From Kutzneria buriramensis (GTDB lineage: Bacteria > Actinomycetota > Actinomycetes > Mycobacteriales > Pseudonocardiaceae), in contig NZ_QUNO01000005.1 of assembly GCF_003387475.1 (NCBI RefSeq), positions 558,001-622,000 of the forward strand: a stretch of 64,000 nt of DNA, written 5' to 3'. The number at the start of each line of letters is the position of its first letter. Within the stretch, counting starts at the first letter, position 1. The notes beneath the pieces were generated by a model. It searched no databases, was not told the origin of the DNA, and saw nothing but the letters and a program-made list of their open reading frames with translations. Positions 5,415-10,423 of the stretch are shown here, in pieces. The translations under genes were made by a program, and so were the position numbers.

Positions 5415-6386
5415 ATGGCTCGCACCCGGCTCTACCGTAACGGCGTCCTGGCCGCCGAGGACTTCAACCCGGCGGACATCTCCGACCACCTCGAGGAACC
5501 CGGGGTGGCGATGTGGCTGGACATGTGCGAACCGGACGAATCCGACCTGCGCACCATCAGTGAGGAACTGGGCCTGCACCGGCTGGCCGTCGAGGACGCG
5601 GTGCACGAGCACCAGCGCCCCAAGCTGGACCACTACGAGTCACACCTGTTCCTGGCCGCATACCTGGCAACTGTGGATCCCGACACGGAGAGGCTGCGCA
5701 CCAGCGAGATCTCCGTGTTCATCACGCCGACGACGCTGGTCACGGTGCGCAAGGACGACGGCTTCGACATCGGCAAGGTGCTGGCCCGCTGGGACACCAA
5801 CGCCGACCTGGCCAAGAGCGGCGTCGGCTTCCTGCTGCACGGGGTGCTGGACTTCATCGTGGACAGCCACATCGACTCCGTGCAGCTGCTGGACGAGCGG
5901 ATCGAGCAGATGGAGGAGGCGCTTTTCGAGGACGACGTGGACCTGCGGCCGCTTCAGCGCCGGTCCTACCAGCTGCGGCGCAGCCTGATGGGGCTGCGCA
6001 AGGTCGCCGGGCCGATGCGCGAAGTGCTGGAGGGCGTGCTACGGCACGGCTCGCACCTGGTGGACCGCACGATGAAGCCGTACTTCGGGGACGTGCAGGA
6101 CCACGTGCTCAAGACCGCCGGCCGGATCGAGTCGCTGCGGGAACTCGTGGCGACGCTGCGCGAGACCGAGCTGACGGTGCAGGGCAACCAGCTGAACCTG
6201 ATCATGAAGCAGGTCACCAGCTGGGCCGCGATCATCGCGGTGCCGACGCTGATCACCGGTTTCTACGGCCAGAACGTGACCTACCCGGGCATCAACACCG
6301 AGTGGGGCTTCTGGCTGTCGAGCGCGGTGATCGTCGTGGCCTCGGTCGGCCTGTGGTGGTTCTTCCGCCGGCGGGACTGGCTGTAG
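5415..6386 (+). CDS. corA: CorA-family divalent metal ion transporter
   Basis: A 323-residue protein with the CorA layout: a large acidic and helical cytoplasmic domain (about 1-260) and two C-terminal membrane helices (AAIIAVPTLITGFYGQN and LSSAVIVVASVGLWWFF), ending in the basic RRRDWL. The signature loop after the first helix reads YGQN, not YGMN, so the methionine of the GMN filter motif is replaced. CorA pentamers pass Mg2+, Co2+ or Ni2+; the ion cannot be told from sequence. The ATG at 5415 follows TAGCCT (5402-5407) by seven bases, implying a leaderless mRNA. It is divergent from the hydrolase gene. Confidence 0.9.
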   Translation: MARTRLYRNGVLAAEDFNPADISDHLEEPGVAMWLDMCEPDESDLRTISEELGLHRLAVEDAVHEHQRPKLDHYESHLFLAAYLATVDPDTERLRTSEISVFITPTTLVTVRKDDGFDIGKVLARWDTNADLAKSGVGFLLHGVLDFIVDSHIDSVQLLDERIEQMEEALFEDDVDLRPLQRRSYQLRRSLMGLRKVAGPMREVLEGVLRHGSHLVDRTMKPYFGDVQDHVLKTAGRIESLRELVATLRETELTVQGNQLNLIMKQVTSWAAIIAVPTLITGFYGQNVTYPGINTEWGFWLSSAVIVVASVGLWWFFRRRDWL

Positions 6387-6387
6387 T

Positions 6388-6393
6388 ACGGTG
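6388..6393 (+). promoter_or_regulatory. Candidate -10 box of the trp leader transcript
   Basis: TACGGT begins two bases after the corA stop codon and ends six bases before the in-frame GTG at 6400, so the leader transcript may begin at or next to its own start codon. No convincing -35 element is seen inside corA. Confidence 0.4.
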
Positions 6394-6399
6394 GGGTCG

Positions 6400-6441
6400 T
6401 GATCGCGCGTCGGAACATGAACTGGTGGCCCGCCTGGTAGG
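6400..6441 (+). CDS. trpL: Trp leader peptide MIARRNMNWWPAW
   Basis: A 13-codon ORF (GTG 6400 to TAG 6439-6441) with three tryptophan codons among its last five. A shorter version would start at ATG 6418. It is followed at once by competing RNA stems and a U-tailed terminator, then by the anthranilate synthase gene. It would work as a sensor: when charged tRNA-Trp is scarce, ribosomes stall on the Trp codons and permit transcription of the downstream gene. It is too short for routine gene callers. Confidence 0.85.
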
Positions 6442-6493
6442 CGGCCCACTCCCACGCGCACCCCGCGGCCGTCTCATCCGAGGCGGCCTTTTC
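6431..6493 (+). promoter_or_regulatory. Trp transcription attenuator (competing hairpins and intrinsic terminator)
   Basis: Four segments can be drawn. CCGCCT (6431-6436) pairs with AGGCGG (6440-6445) around the last Trp codon. GGCGGCC (6441-6447) can instead pair with GGCCGTC (6468-6474) as antiterminator. GGCCGTCTC (6468-6476) pairs with GAGGCGGCC (6481-6489) around ATCC, one G-U pair included, followed by TTTTCGTTT as terminator. Segments 2 and 4 share the same core, as classical attenuation requires. Confidence 0.85.
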
Positions 6494-6540
6494 GTTTGCC
6501 CGCTGCGGTTGTGACGGCCCTTCTCGGAAGGACCTCACCC

Positions 6541-8334
6541 GTGCTGCTGGACCGGATCCTCGCCGCCGACACACCGTTCGCGCTGCTCCGCCGTTCGCCC
6601 GACGTCGTCGACGTGCTCGTCGGCGACGTCGTCGAGGTGGCCGGACTCGCTGACATTCCCTTGTCCGACAATGAAGTTCTGGCGATCGTGCCATACCGAC
6701 AGATCTCCGAGCGCGGCTTCGAATGCGTGGACGACGGCGCGCCGCTACTGGCCCTGCGCGTGACCGATCGCGAAACCTGTACCTTGGACGAGGTTCTGGC
6801 GCGCGTCGGCGACGTGCCGTTCGAGCTGGCCGACGCCGGCTTCGACGTGGACGACGCCAGCTACGGCGAGATCGTGCGCAAGGTGCTCGCCGAGGAGATC
6901 GGCCAGGGCGCCGGGGCGAACTTCGTCGTCAAGAGGACCTACACCGCAGCGATTCCCGACTACAGCATCGCCACCGCGCTCGCCGTGTTCCGCCGGCTGC
7001 TGCTCGCCGAGCGCGGGGCGTACTGGACGTTCATCGTGCACACCGGGTCCCGGACGTTCGTCGGCGCCACACCCGAGCGGCACGTGTCCGTCGAGGACGG
7101 CGTGGCCATGATGAACCCGATCAGCGGCACGTATCGGCATCCCGACGGCCGCCCCGACCGGGCCGAGCTGCTGGCGTTTCTCGCCGACAGCAAGGAGACC
7201 GACGAGCTGTACATGGTCGTCGACGAGGAGCTGAAGATGATGGCCCGCGTCGGCAACCGGGGCGGCCGGGTGCTCGGGCCGTATCTCAAGGAGATGTCCC
7301 GGCTCACCCACACCGAGTACCTGCTCGCCGGAAAGACCACTTTGGACGTTCGGGACGTGCTGCGGGAGACCATGTTCGCACCCACGGTCACCGGCAGCCC
7401 GCTGGAGAACGCCTGCCGGGTGATCGCCCGCTACGAGCAGCGCGGCCGTGGATACTACGCCGGCGTGATCGCCCTCATCGGCCCGCACGGATCCTCTTTG
7501 GACGCACCGATCCTGATCCGCACCGCCGAGATCTCCCCCGCCGGCGAGCTTCGGGTCTCCGTGGGCGCCACGCTCGTCCGCGATTCCGTGCCGGAGAACG
7601 AGATCGCCGAGACCTACGCCAAGGCCGCCGGCATCCTCTCCGCGCTGCACGGAAAGTCCACACCGGACACTTCTGTCGCCTCGTTCGCCCAGGACGTCCA
7701 GGTGTTGGACGCCCTGGCCGCCCGCAACGACCGCCTCGCCCGGTTCTGGCTCGACACCCGCGACGACTCCGTTTCCGGGCCGTTCAGCGGCAAACGCGCC
7801 CTGGTCGTCGACGGCGAGGACACCTTCACCGCCATGCTCGACCACGTGCTACAGACGCTGGGCCTGGAGGTCACGATCGTCGCCCACGACTCCGCGCCGG
7901 CGATCGCCGGCTACGACCTGGTCATCGCCGGCCCCGGCCCGGGCGATCCCCGTGAGCACACCGACCCCAAGATCGCCGCCCTGCGCCGGATCGTCCGCGA
8001 GGTCCTGGAGTCGGGCATTCCCCTGCTGGCCATCTGCCTCGGCCACCAGGTGCTGTCGTCGCTGCTGGGGCTGGAGCTGATCCGCAAAACCCAGCCGTAC
8101 CAGGGCATGCAGCGCTCCATCTCGCTGTTCGGCCAGCCGGAACGCGTCGGCTTCTACAGCACCTTCGTCGCCACCGGAACCGTGCCCGGCGTCGAGATCA
8201 GCGCCGACCCCGCCACCGGCGAGATCCACGCCCTGCGCGCCCCCGGCTTCGCCTCCACCCAGTTCCACCCCGAGTCGATCCTCACCGAACACGGCACCAC
8301 AATCCTGGCCACCCTCCTCACCCACCTCCTCTGA
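6541..8334 (+). CDS. trpEG: Fused anthranilate synthase (TrpE-TrpG type)
   Basis: A 597-residue fusion. Residues 1-410 are the chorismate-using synthase domain (PISGTYRHPDG, DELYMVVDEELKMMARV, VTGSPLENA); residues 420-597 are a class I glutamine amidotransferase with the nucleophile in AICLGHQ and the catalytic pair in FHPES. It should convert chorismate and glutamine to anthranilate, the first step of tryptophan synthesis. The same fused architecture occurs in PhzE-like aminodeoxyisochorismate synthases of phenazine pathways, but the Trp attenuator directly upstream favours a tryptophan-responsive role. The GTG at 6541 has GGAAGGA eight bases upstream. No other trp gene lies beside it. Confidence 0.85.
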   Translation: MLLDRILAADTPFALLRRSPDVVDVLVGDVVEVAGLADIPLSDNEVLAIVPYRQISERGFECVDDGAPLLALRVTDRETCTLDEVLARVGDVPFELADAGFDVDDASYGEIVRKVLAEEIGQGAGANFVVKRTYTAAIPDYSIATALAVFRRLLLAERGAYWTFIVHTGSRTFVGATPERHVSVEDGVAMMNPISGTYRHPDGRPDRAELLAFLADSKETDELYMVVDEELKMMARVGNRGGRVLGPYLKEMSRLTHTEYLLAGKTTLDVRDVLRETMFAPTVTGSPLENACRVIARYEQRGRGYYAGVIALIGPHGSSLDAPILIRTAEISPAGELRVSVGATLVRDSVPENEIAETYAKAAGILSALHGKSTPDTSVASFAQDVQVLDALAARNDRLARFWLDTRDDSVSGPFSGKRALVVDGEDTFTAMLDHVLQTLGLEVTIVAHDSAPAIAGYDLVIAGPGPGDPREHTDPKIAALRRIVREVLESGIPLLAICLGHQVLSSLLGLELIRKTQPYQGMQRSISLFGQPERVGFYSTFVATGTVPGVEISADPATGEIHALRAPGFASTQFHPESILTEHGTTILATLLTHLL

Positions 8335-8335
8335 C

Positions 8336-8445
8336 CCCCGCGAGTCGCGCTCTCAGACACACCGAATGTCGGTTTCAGGCACATGCCCGAGACCTACATT
8401 CGGTGTGCTCCGCAGTGTTGATCTATTTGGGCAGACTCGCCGGGG
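8336..8445. repeat. Dispersed repeat B: inverted pair forming a long hairpin
   Basis: The whole gap between trpEG and the kinase gene (convergent) is made of two facing copies of one element. The left copy starts CCCCGCGAGTCGCGCTC (8336-8352); the right copy ends GACTCGCCGGGG (about 8433-8444). Their inner parts, CACACCGAATGT (8358-8369) and ACATTCGGTGTG (8396-8407), pair perfectly, and pairing continues inward with one mismatch. Related copies lie at 10492-10530 and 37974-38011. It probably terminates both genes. Confidence 0.75.
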
Positions 8446-8446
8446 T

Positions 8447-10423
8447 TCAGATGCGGCGGGTGAAGGCGGTGACGGGGCCCTTCTGGGAGACGCCGGTGTT
8501 GGACAGCCAGCCGTCCAGCTGCTGCTGCACCCGGCCCAGGGTGGGCCGGTGCCCGGGCTCCTTGTCCAGGGACGCCATGAGCAGCCGCCGGTGCACGGAC
8601 CGCTCCGGCAGCTTGGTGTTGGGCTCGGCGTTGGCGCCGGCCAGCAGCGCGGCCATGGGGTTCTCACGGGTGCCGCGCGGCGGGCTGCCGGTGAGCGCGT
8701 AGCTGACGGTCGCGGCGAGCTGCCAGGCGTCGGACGCGGGGCTGGCGGAGTCGCCACGGGCGACCTCGGGTGCCAGGTAGTCCGGGGTGCCCATCATCAT
8801 GCCGGTGGCGGTCAGCGTGCTGTCCCCCCGCCGCCGGGCCAGGCCGAAGTCGATCAGATGCGGGATGCCATCGTTGTCGATGATCACGTTCGACGGCTTG
8901 AGGTCCCGATGCAGCACCGACTTCTCGTGCGCCGCGTTCAGGGCCCCGGCCAGGGTCGACCACAGCCGCGCCGCCGACACGTCGTCGAGCAGGCCGTTGC
9001 GCTGCATCGCCTGCGCCAGCGACAGCCCCTCGACGTACTCCATGACGATGGCGATGCCGTCTTCCTCCTCGAGGATGTCGTAGACGTGCACGCAGTTCTC
9101 GTGCCGGACCGCGGCCAGCGCGCGGGCCTCCCGGTACATGCGCTCCTGGGTGTCTGCGTCGGAGGTGTGCGCGATCTTGATCGCGACCTGCCGGTTCAGG
9201 TTGGCGTCCATGGCCAGCCACACCTTGCCGAAGCCGCCGGCGCCGAGCTGGCGGATGCGGCGGAACCGGCCGCCGAACGAGTCGCCGGTGCTGTCGAACT
9301 TGGTCGGCGCGTCCAGCGGGTTGTAGACGGTCTTGTCCGGATCCGGCGCGGGCGGCGTGGCCCACGGCAGCGGACCGGGCGTCATCGCCAGGCCGGCCTG
9401 CGACGGGGCCGCCGGCTGCACGCGGGTGGGCGGCGGCAGCGGCCGGGGTTGGGGCCGCACCGGCGGCGGCTGGACCTGCGTCCGCGGCGCCTGCGGTTGC
9501 GGCTGGGCCTGGCTGTACATCTTCGTCGGCGGGTTCTGCCGGGGCATCGGCGCCTGCTGGGACGCCATCTGCGCCGACGGCGCGGGCGTCTGCGGCTTGG
9601 TCTGCGGCAGGGGCTTCGGCTGCGACGGCGGCATCGGCCGCTGTTCCCCCATCGCCTTCGCCCCCGGCTCGGCGGTCGCCGGCTCCTTGTGCAGCACGGC
9701 GTCGCTGGGGGTGCCGAGCAGCTTCACCGCCAGCACGCCGACCGCACTCACGGGTAAGAAGCCCAGCCAGAGCAGCCCGACCACGCCGACCGGCAGGTCG
9801 AGGGTGAAGAAAACCAGCAGCACGAACGGCGCGTAGTACAGCCGCGCCGGCCAGCGGGCCCCGCCGCGGAACGCGTTCTTGGCCTGCTTGGTGATCCAGA
9901 ACAGGATGAACGCCGGCACCACGACCAGTGCCGCGATGGACAGCCAGCGCACCGGCGCGGCCTCGTAGCCGCTGGTGATCGCCAGCCCCGCCCGCGGCGA
10001 GCCGGCCAGCAGCTCGTCCTGGGTGTTCAGGACGTAGCAGAATTTCTCCTGGAGGCTGCGGCCCGCGCCGAAGCCGTCCGCGGCCAGCTGCCGCAGCGCG
10101 TCGGTCGCCCCCGAGAACGCCGAGAGCGGCAGCAGCAGGTTGCCGACCACCCCGATGCCGGTGAACAGGATCACCATGACCGGGTTGTAATTGTTGCCGC
10201 TGACCTTGCGAATCATCGCCACGAGCATCGCCGCGGCGATCGGGGCCAGCGCGAAGAAGCCGCCGGCGAGAATCGTCGTCAGCAGCCAGTCGCCATTGCA
10301 GACCCGCAGTCCGAACGCGCTGTGCAGTCCAGACAGCAGGCCGTTCACCAGCGCGCCGACACCGTCCACCCCGTCACTGTATCGCCGAGCGGAGAGTAGT
10401 AGCCCGGACAGCGCACCCGACAT
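8447..10423 (-). CDS. Membrane-bound Ser/Thr protein kinase with an N-terminal multi-helix domain
   Basis: A 658-residue protein in reversed order compared with PknB-type kinases. Residues 1-230 hold about five membrane helices, 240-380 a proline/glutamine-rich linker, and 385-640 a Hanks-type kinase domain. Kinase motifs are complete: GAGGFGKV glycine loop, AIKI lysine, HRDLKPSN catalytic loop, DFG (in LIDFGLARR), and GTPDYLAPE. It should phosphorylate proteins on Ser/Thr at the inner face of the membrane. The helical domain is not one I recognise, so the input signal is unknown. It is downstream of the GH92 gene on the same strand but separated by a strong hairpin. Confidence 0.85.
   Translation of the reverse strand: MSGALSGLLLSARRYSDGVDGVGALVNGLLSGLHSAFGLRVCNGDWLLTTILAGGFFALAPIAAAMLVAMIRKVSGNNYNPVMVILFTGIGVVGNLLLPLSAFSGATDALRQLAADGFGAGRSLQEKFCYVLNTQDELLAGSPRAGLAITSGYEAAPVRWLSIAALVVVPAFILFWITKQAKNAFRGGARWPARLYYAPFVLLVFFTLDLPVGVVGLLWLGFLPVSAVGVLAVKLLGTPSDAVLHKEPATAEPGAKAMGEQRPMPPSQPKPLPQTKPQTPAPSAQMASQQAPMPRQNPPTKMYSQAQPQPQAPRTQVQPPPVRPQPRPLPPPTRVQPAAPSQAGLAMTPGPLPWATPPAPDPDKTVYNPLDAPTKFDSTGDSFGGRFRRIRQLGAGGFGKVWLAMDANLNRQVAIKIAHTSDADTQERMYREARALAAVRHENCVHVYDILEEEDGIAIVMEYVEGLSLAQAMQRNGLLDDVSAARLWSTLAGALNAAHEKSVLHRDLKPSNVIIDNDGIPHLIDFGLARRRGDSTLTATGMMMGTPDYLAPEVARGDSASPASDAWQLAATVSYALTGSPPRGTRENPMAALLAGANAEPNTKLPERSVHRRLLMASLDKEPGHRPTLGRVQQQLDGWLSNTGVSQKGPVTAFTRRI

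Follow-up and report, generated by a model that had tools for sequence, protein, structure and literature searches.

The window analysed here is a stretch of 64,000 nucleotides of Kutzneria buriramensis DNA, and positions are those of the window unless another contig is named. Between corA and a gene for a PhzE-like fused enzyme lies a probable attenuator element that spans 6387-6497. In the 597-residue product of the downstream gene, a domain search found a chorismate-binding domain and a class-I glutamine amidotransferase domain fused into one chain. The features of the locus are as follows.

6384-6386, plus strand: stop codon of corA, which ends at 6386 (read from the sequence)
6387-6392, plus strand: -10-like box TACGGT, immediately 3' of the corA stop codon
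6399-6440, plus strand: leaderless leader-peptide ORF VIARRNMNWWPAW, GTG start, 13 codons, TAG stop at 6438-6440
6423-6425 and 6426-6428, plus strand: conserved Trp codons of the leader ORF (genus comparison)
6435-6437, plus strand: third Trp codon of the leader ORF, not conserved (genus comparison)
6425-6435, plus strand: segment 1, overlapping the Trp codons (fold and covariation)
6439-6449, plus strand: segment 2, beginning AGGCGGCC, partner of segment 1 or segment 3 (fold, covariation and masking)
6467-6475, plus strand: segment 3, GGCCGTCTC (fold and covariation)
6480-6488, plus strand: segment 4, GAGGCGGCC, which with segment 3 forms the intrinsic terminator (fold and covariation)
6489-6497, plus strand: T-rich tail of the terminator, the hairpin being followed by TTTTCGTTT
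6526-6532, plus strand: Shine-Dalgarno-like GGAAGGA of the structural gene (read from the sequence)
6541-8334, plus strand: fused chorismate-binding/glutamine amidotransferase gene, GTG start, 597 aa, PhzE-like, proposed anthranilate synthase

A preliminary description of this DNA had proposed a leader of 13 codons with three Trp codons and a start at 6400. The length and the Trp codons were confirmed, but the true start is one base earlier, at the GTG at 6399, which follows the TACGGT box after a gap of 6 nt. The leader, with its -10 box and terminator stem, was present in 7/7 Kutzneria genomes examined. Conservation of the Trp codons in the Kutzneria orthologs held for two of them and failed for the third: the first two were kept in all seven genomes, side by side in a short leader ORF whose translation is predicted, and the third position was W in four genomes, S in two and F in one. 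Since the third codon adjoins the stop, a ribosome stalled there would cover segment 2, and this codon should therefore not aid read-through.

We compared 68 leaders, made up of the 66 two-Trp leaders of the enzyme clade described below together with those of loci L014 and L088. A TANNNT box ended 6, 7 or 8 nt before the leader start in 20, 43 and 5 leaders, respectively; this total of 68/68 is an upper estimate because the leader start was chosen with a preference for such a box, but it is still far above the control, in which the same spacing was found at 3/667 other ATG or GTG codons of the same stretches. A Shine-Dalgarno-like word preceded 7/68 leader starts, compared with 38/68 approximate gene starts. 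The conserved spacing of the box, within 6-8 nt, supports the leaderless start suggested at the outset. A scan with the sigma-70 consensus returned no promoter at the 6387-6392 box. From the sequence we infer that transcription starts at the leader GTG at 6399. A study of Streptomyces lividans reports that trpL1 is transcribed leaderless (PMC8079986).

Folding of the RNA from 6399 to 6500, a check put forward with the preliminary description, yielded both the hairpin of segments 1 and 2 (6425-6449) and the terminator (6467-6488). The fold had an energy of -49.7 kcal/mol, compared with -39.07 kcal/mol (sd 3.56) for 200 shuffles (z = -2.99, 0/200 as stable). The stop codon of the leader ORF lies within the 6425-6449 hairpin, as does the second Trp codon. 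Segment 3 (GGCCGTCT) offers segment 2 (AGGCGGCC) an alternative partner, and the core of segment 2 recurs in segment 4, in agreement with the GGCGGCC core that the two had been said to share. A scan of 6200-8600 for terminator-like matches found one, the hairpin of segments 3 and 4; as shuffles yielded 1.0 on average, the scan alone proves nothing. It is conservation (7/7 genus genomes, the -10 spacing and the covariation of the terminator) that makes the element more than chance.

Covariation was measured on an alignment of 34 of the 68 leaders, namely the WW types that align, with the WWW rows of the genus coded g71, L071-L074, L160, L164, L166 and L088 omitted. In these 34 leaders the terminator stem (3:4) had 96.7% of cells paired and 28 two-sided changes, which 0/500 shuffles reached. 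The corresponding values were 84.6%, 7 changes and 1/500 shuffles for the antiterminator stem (2:3), and 82.6%, 2 changes and 10/500 shuffles for stem 1:2. One base pair of stem 2:3 was unpaired in 18/34 rows. The prediction that stems covary across ortholog leaders was thus strongly upheld for the terminator but not for stems 1:2 and 2:3, which covariation backs weakly because both are mostly invariant. The U-tailed terminator that had been described is present, as a 3:4 hairpin with a T-rich tail and a covarying stem. Among all 68 leaders, a T-rich tail (at least 4 T in 9) was found in 40 only, and an antiterminator match of at least 7 bp in 44; L013 (4 T in 9) and L015 (3 T in 9) are examples of weaker tails.

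Ribosome positions were simulated by masking in 10 rows. When segment 1 was covered, the leader being hidden up to 14 bases beyond the first Trp codon, and segment 4 was not yet made, the fold with segments 2 and 3 paired was the best in the seven genus members, with an energy of -14.8 kcal/mol in the K. buriramensis window. When the ribosome was placed at the leader stop, the terminator formed. The folds and the masking together support the mutually exclusive antiterminator and terminator stems of the preliminary description. Once segment 4 was present, the terminator outcompeted the antiterminator in all 10 rows folded, so the switch would have to be kinetic and decided by timing.

The weakness of the T-rich tails in many relatives could also point to a different mode of action, in which ribosome stalling with transcription termination plays no part and the leader affects how the main gene is translated, or control is exerted by a T-box or a Trp-sensing protein. 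We consider this very improbable, because the terminator stem covaries and no variation was seen in the tandem Trp codons of the 34 aligned leaders (which were chosen for adjacent Trp codons), and because no leader family reached the Rfam gathering score in the window. At that score no family matched the element, and a tRNA elsewhere in the window was the only hit; a relaxed Rfam search gave one match of 15 bits (E = 1.1).

The element begins at the corA stop codon and its terminator has the same orientation as corA, as would be expected if the hairpins did no more than terminate transcription of corA and the short ORF were a by-product. However, in searches covering 700 to 1500 upstream bases for most of the 68 loci, CorA-like sequence was found upstream of 6/68 leaders only, all of them in Kutzneria (L009-L014). 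All 68 fused genes have the leader in front of them, with conserved Trp codons and a conserved -10 spacing. This explanation was rejected as very improbable.

For the preferred reading, attenuation by a translating ribosome, the proposed sequence of events is as follows. With transcription beginning at the leader GTG, the ribosome would load on the extreme 5' end without a Shine-Dalgarno sequence. When charged Trp-tRNA is plentiful, it would reach the UAG at 6438 and cover segment 2, leaving segments 3 and 4 to form the terminator ahead of the gene. When charged Trp-tRNA is short, it would stall at 6423-6428, where the two UGG codons stand in tandem, and cover segment 1; segment 2 would then pair with segment 3, and transcription would continue into the gene.

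We also considered whether the same genome contains another strong copy of the element and rejected this, as a covariance model (R1) scored 75 bits here and 26.3 bits (E = 0.055) at the next match. A pattern search for further copies in the genome gave 2 matches, compared with 5 for the control. In another Kutzneria genome (G005, contig C191), locus L213 is a second attenuator-like match (E = 3.0e-6) with a GWWRP leader. Searching with the covariance model of the fused-enzyme leaders also brought up Trp leaders in 57 genomes of the family outside Kutzneria, in one of which (G076) the leader belongs to the fused enzyme itself. Among 23 loci that the model found in other genera of the family (L185-L207), the downstream gene was trpS in 8/8 tested. 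These trpS attenuators of actinomycetes are similar to the fused-enzyme leaders in that the same model matches them, but differ in the downstream gene and in having leaders of the WWSAFRRP or WWAADRRP type.

An ortholog of the fused enzyme was found in 7/7 Kutzneria genomes; in one of them (L014, genome G002) the frame is interrupted by a stop and the leader is intact. We assembled 159 PhzE-type fused loci, comprising 70 places from 200 genomes of the family (Kutzneria included) and 89 places from the class, the latter taken from at least 148 places outside the window's genome in 394 genomes. L014 was dropped because of its short frame, which left 158 rows. In the resulting tree the window fell in a branch of 71 rows with a support of 99. 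A two-Trp leader (a suitably placed short ORF containing neighbouring Trp codons) preceded 66/71 rows of this clade and 1/87 of the others, and the single case among the others (L049) was judged from its surroundings to be chance. The five clade rows without such a leader were L088, which has one Trp codon, L125, which has too little upstream DNA, and L159, L162 and L163, which have none. A second tree of 64 chosen rows (IQ-TREE quick search) split 28 clade rows from 36 others, including two Pseudomonas phzE, with an SH-aLRT of 100. The window's enzyme therefore groups with the attenuator-bearing fused enzymes, as a fused anthranilate synthase of the Streptomyces venezuelae type would, and apart from PhzE.

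Two kinds of departure from the leader were seen within the clade. L159, L162 and L163 (genus coded g91) each have a TANNNT box followed 6 nt later by an ATG that is, or is close to, the start of the gene, which would fit a structural gene that has itself turned leaderless. In L088, which is the same locus as L295 (Pseudofrankia sp. BMG5.36), the second Trp codon has become CGG (Arg), and both hairpin-forming stretches look retained.

Eight discriminating alignment columns were listed between the clade and the other rows, and residues Pro323 and Ala307 stand out among them. Pro323 was present in 71/71 clade rows and 0/87 others, which have Ala, Ser or rarely Thr or Val, and Ala307 in 58/71 clade rows and 4/87 others, which mostly have Ser. 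PhzE (3r74) has Ala and Ser at positions 323 and 307. In a named set of 80 of 578 relatives, which shares at least 11 loci with the 159-locus set, the leader was found in 23/25 rows with Pro323 and 0/55 rows without it. The two Pro323 rows lacking it were L295 and L290, whose gene start is uncertain. Four Pseudomonas phzE loci grouped with the non-clade rows of this named set.

The nearest solved structure by sequence is the ADIC synthase PhzE (3r74), which matched at 603 bits over residues 2-596. The models for fused anthranilate synthases were not reached; the scores were 168 bits against a cut-off of 645, and 151 bits against 739 for TIGR01815 (NCBIfam TrpE-clade3). With the best solved match being PhzE and the scores so far under these cut-offs, the attenuator could be real and the enzyme nevertheless a secondary-metabolism ADIC synthase under tryptophan control. 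However, the neighbourhood of a PhzE ADIC synthase was absent from the clade, in which 0/71 loci had a PhzD-type neighbour in the fetched stretch, compared with 69/87 others. As most clade loci had 700 bases upstream and little downstream, a fairer count is that of loci with 1500-base flanks on both sides, which gave 0/16 for the clade and 40/47 for the others. With flanks of up to 2000 bases, the named set of 80 of 578 relatives gave 0/25 and 52/55, respectively. The PhzE paralog on contig C24 of the same genome does have such a neighbour, and the leaders of some clade rows are one letter from the S. lividans trpE leader. We regard an ADIC synthase under tryptophan control as unlikely. From the Trp leaders of the clade and its lack of PhzD-type neighbours, the fused enzyme is most likely an anthranilate synthase, making anthranilate for tryptophan and not ADIC for a phenazine-type pathway. 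Its place in the attenuator clade, apart from the PhzD-adjacent PhzE-type proteins, agrees with the earlier suggestion that this PhzE-like enzyme is the one of the tryptophan pathway. Ashenafi is said to have reported in 2015 that the fused enzyme of S. venezuelae, for all its similarity to PhzE, is an anthranilate synthase rather than an ADIC synthase.

Taken as a whole, the element is very probably a classical ribosome-mediated transcription attenuator with a leaderless start, controlling a second, fused anthranilate synthase that makes anthranilate; the gene would respond to tryptophan, judging from the leader and its stems.

The other anthranilate-synthase-like genes were also examined. 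A canonical TrpE scored above the cut-off in 7/7 Kutzneria genomes, and in the window's genome its gene lies near trpA. Within about 500 bases upstream of the canonical trpE, no short ORF containing two Trp codons was seen in any of the seven. In the window's genome the canonical trpE is divergent from a TetR-type gene, and an inverted repeat, ATTTCAA..TTGAAAT, lies between the two (L208, G000 contig C3, about 9007-9070). The core of this repeat, TTTCAACAACCATTGAAAT, is identical in 5/7 Kutzneria genomes and altered in two (L208, L214-L220). The TetR-type gene product is possibly a repressor of the canonical trpE. The PhzE paralog on contig C24 (L210) lies beside an isochorismatase gene and has no Trp leader; further anthranilate-synthase-like frames are found about 6 kb away, and this region is likely an ADIC-using gene cluster. 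The same genome also encodes a fused TrpE-clade3 protein on contig C9, where 0/3 neighbours tested matched a trp gene.

Lin reportedly described a trpE attenuator of S. venezuelae in 1998, and a conference paper is said to cover Trp attenuators in Actinobacteria. In published accounts, classical Trp attenuators precede trp operons in Streptomyces and Corynebacterium and trpS in some Streptomyces (PMC1262725, PMC8079986), and the trp attenuators of Streptomyces and Corynebacterium contain a gGCC-rGCy-GGCC triple (PMC1262725). The S. lividans trpL1-trpE attenuator is described there as leaderless, with the leader peptide NWWWTAHPAAH (PMC8079986). The S. lividans trpL1 and the Kutzneria leader have in common a leaderless start, adjacent Trp codons, two hairpins with a U-rich stretch and a single downstream gene. 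The Kutzneria leader differs from it in having 13 codons and not 18, two conserved Trp codons and not three in a row, its stop codon within the 1:2 hairpin, and a position behind corA. In its arrangement the Kutzneria element corresponds to the trpL1-trpE attenuator published for Streptomyces, and such elements are already known.

Leaders nearly identical to that of the Streptomyces trpE attenuator stand before fused members of the window's clade. Leaders found in the rows of genus code g71 include MFAHSTQNWWWTAHPAAH, which differs by one letter from trpL1 of S. lividans as published, and from their leaders we infer that the f21/g71 loci are Streptomyces. The predicted Kutzneria product and the Streptomyces-like g71 fused enzymes are about 52-58% identical. 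The S. venezuelae fused anthranilate synthase shares the fused PhzE-type architecture and, by its leader type, would belong to the same clade. PhzE ADIC synthase (PDB 3r74) resembles the Kutzneria enzyme in domain order and aligns with it over the full length, but outside the clade most PhzE-type genes have a PhzD-type gene next to them, and they lack a Trp leader and differ at residues 307 and 323.

One study describes protein sequences as uninformative on why PhzE goes no further than ADIC (PMC5958127); the clade split supplies candidate residues for this. The idea that anthranilate formation in general requires Pro323 was rejected, as in the anthranilate synthase chains 1i1q and 5kck this position is occupied by Cys and Ala. 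Since these TrpE-type chains lack the proline, Pro323 matters at most inside the PhzE-type family. A tentative and rather doubtful extension is that the Trp attenuator is a hallmark of one old anthranilate-making PhzE-type lineage in Actinomycetes, and that Pro323 and Ala307 help decide the removal of pyruvate from ADIC. In the literature searched, which covered few subscription papers, we found no paper in which the attenuator serves to divide PhzE-type enzymes, with Pro323 as a fully discriminating residue, and its role as a marker splitting these enzymes may be new; PMC5270213 gave nothing relevant. The analysis indicates which of the several anthranilate-synthase-like genes of Kutzneria would answer to tryptophan, and it offers a sequence-only rule for separating tryptophan enzymes from look-alike phenazine-type enzymes.
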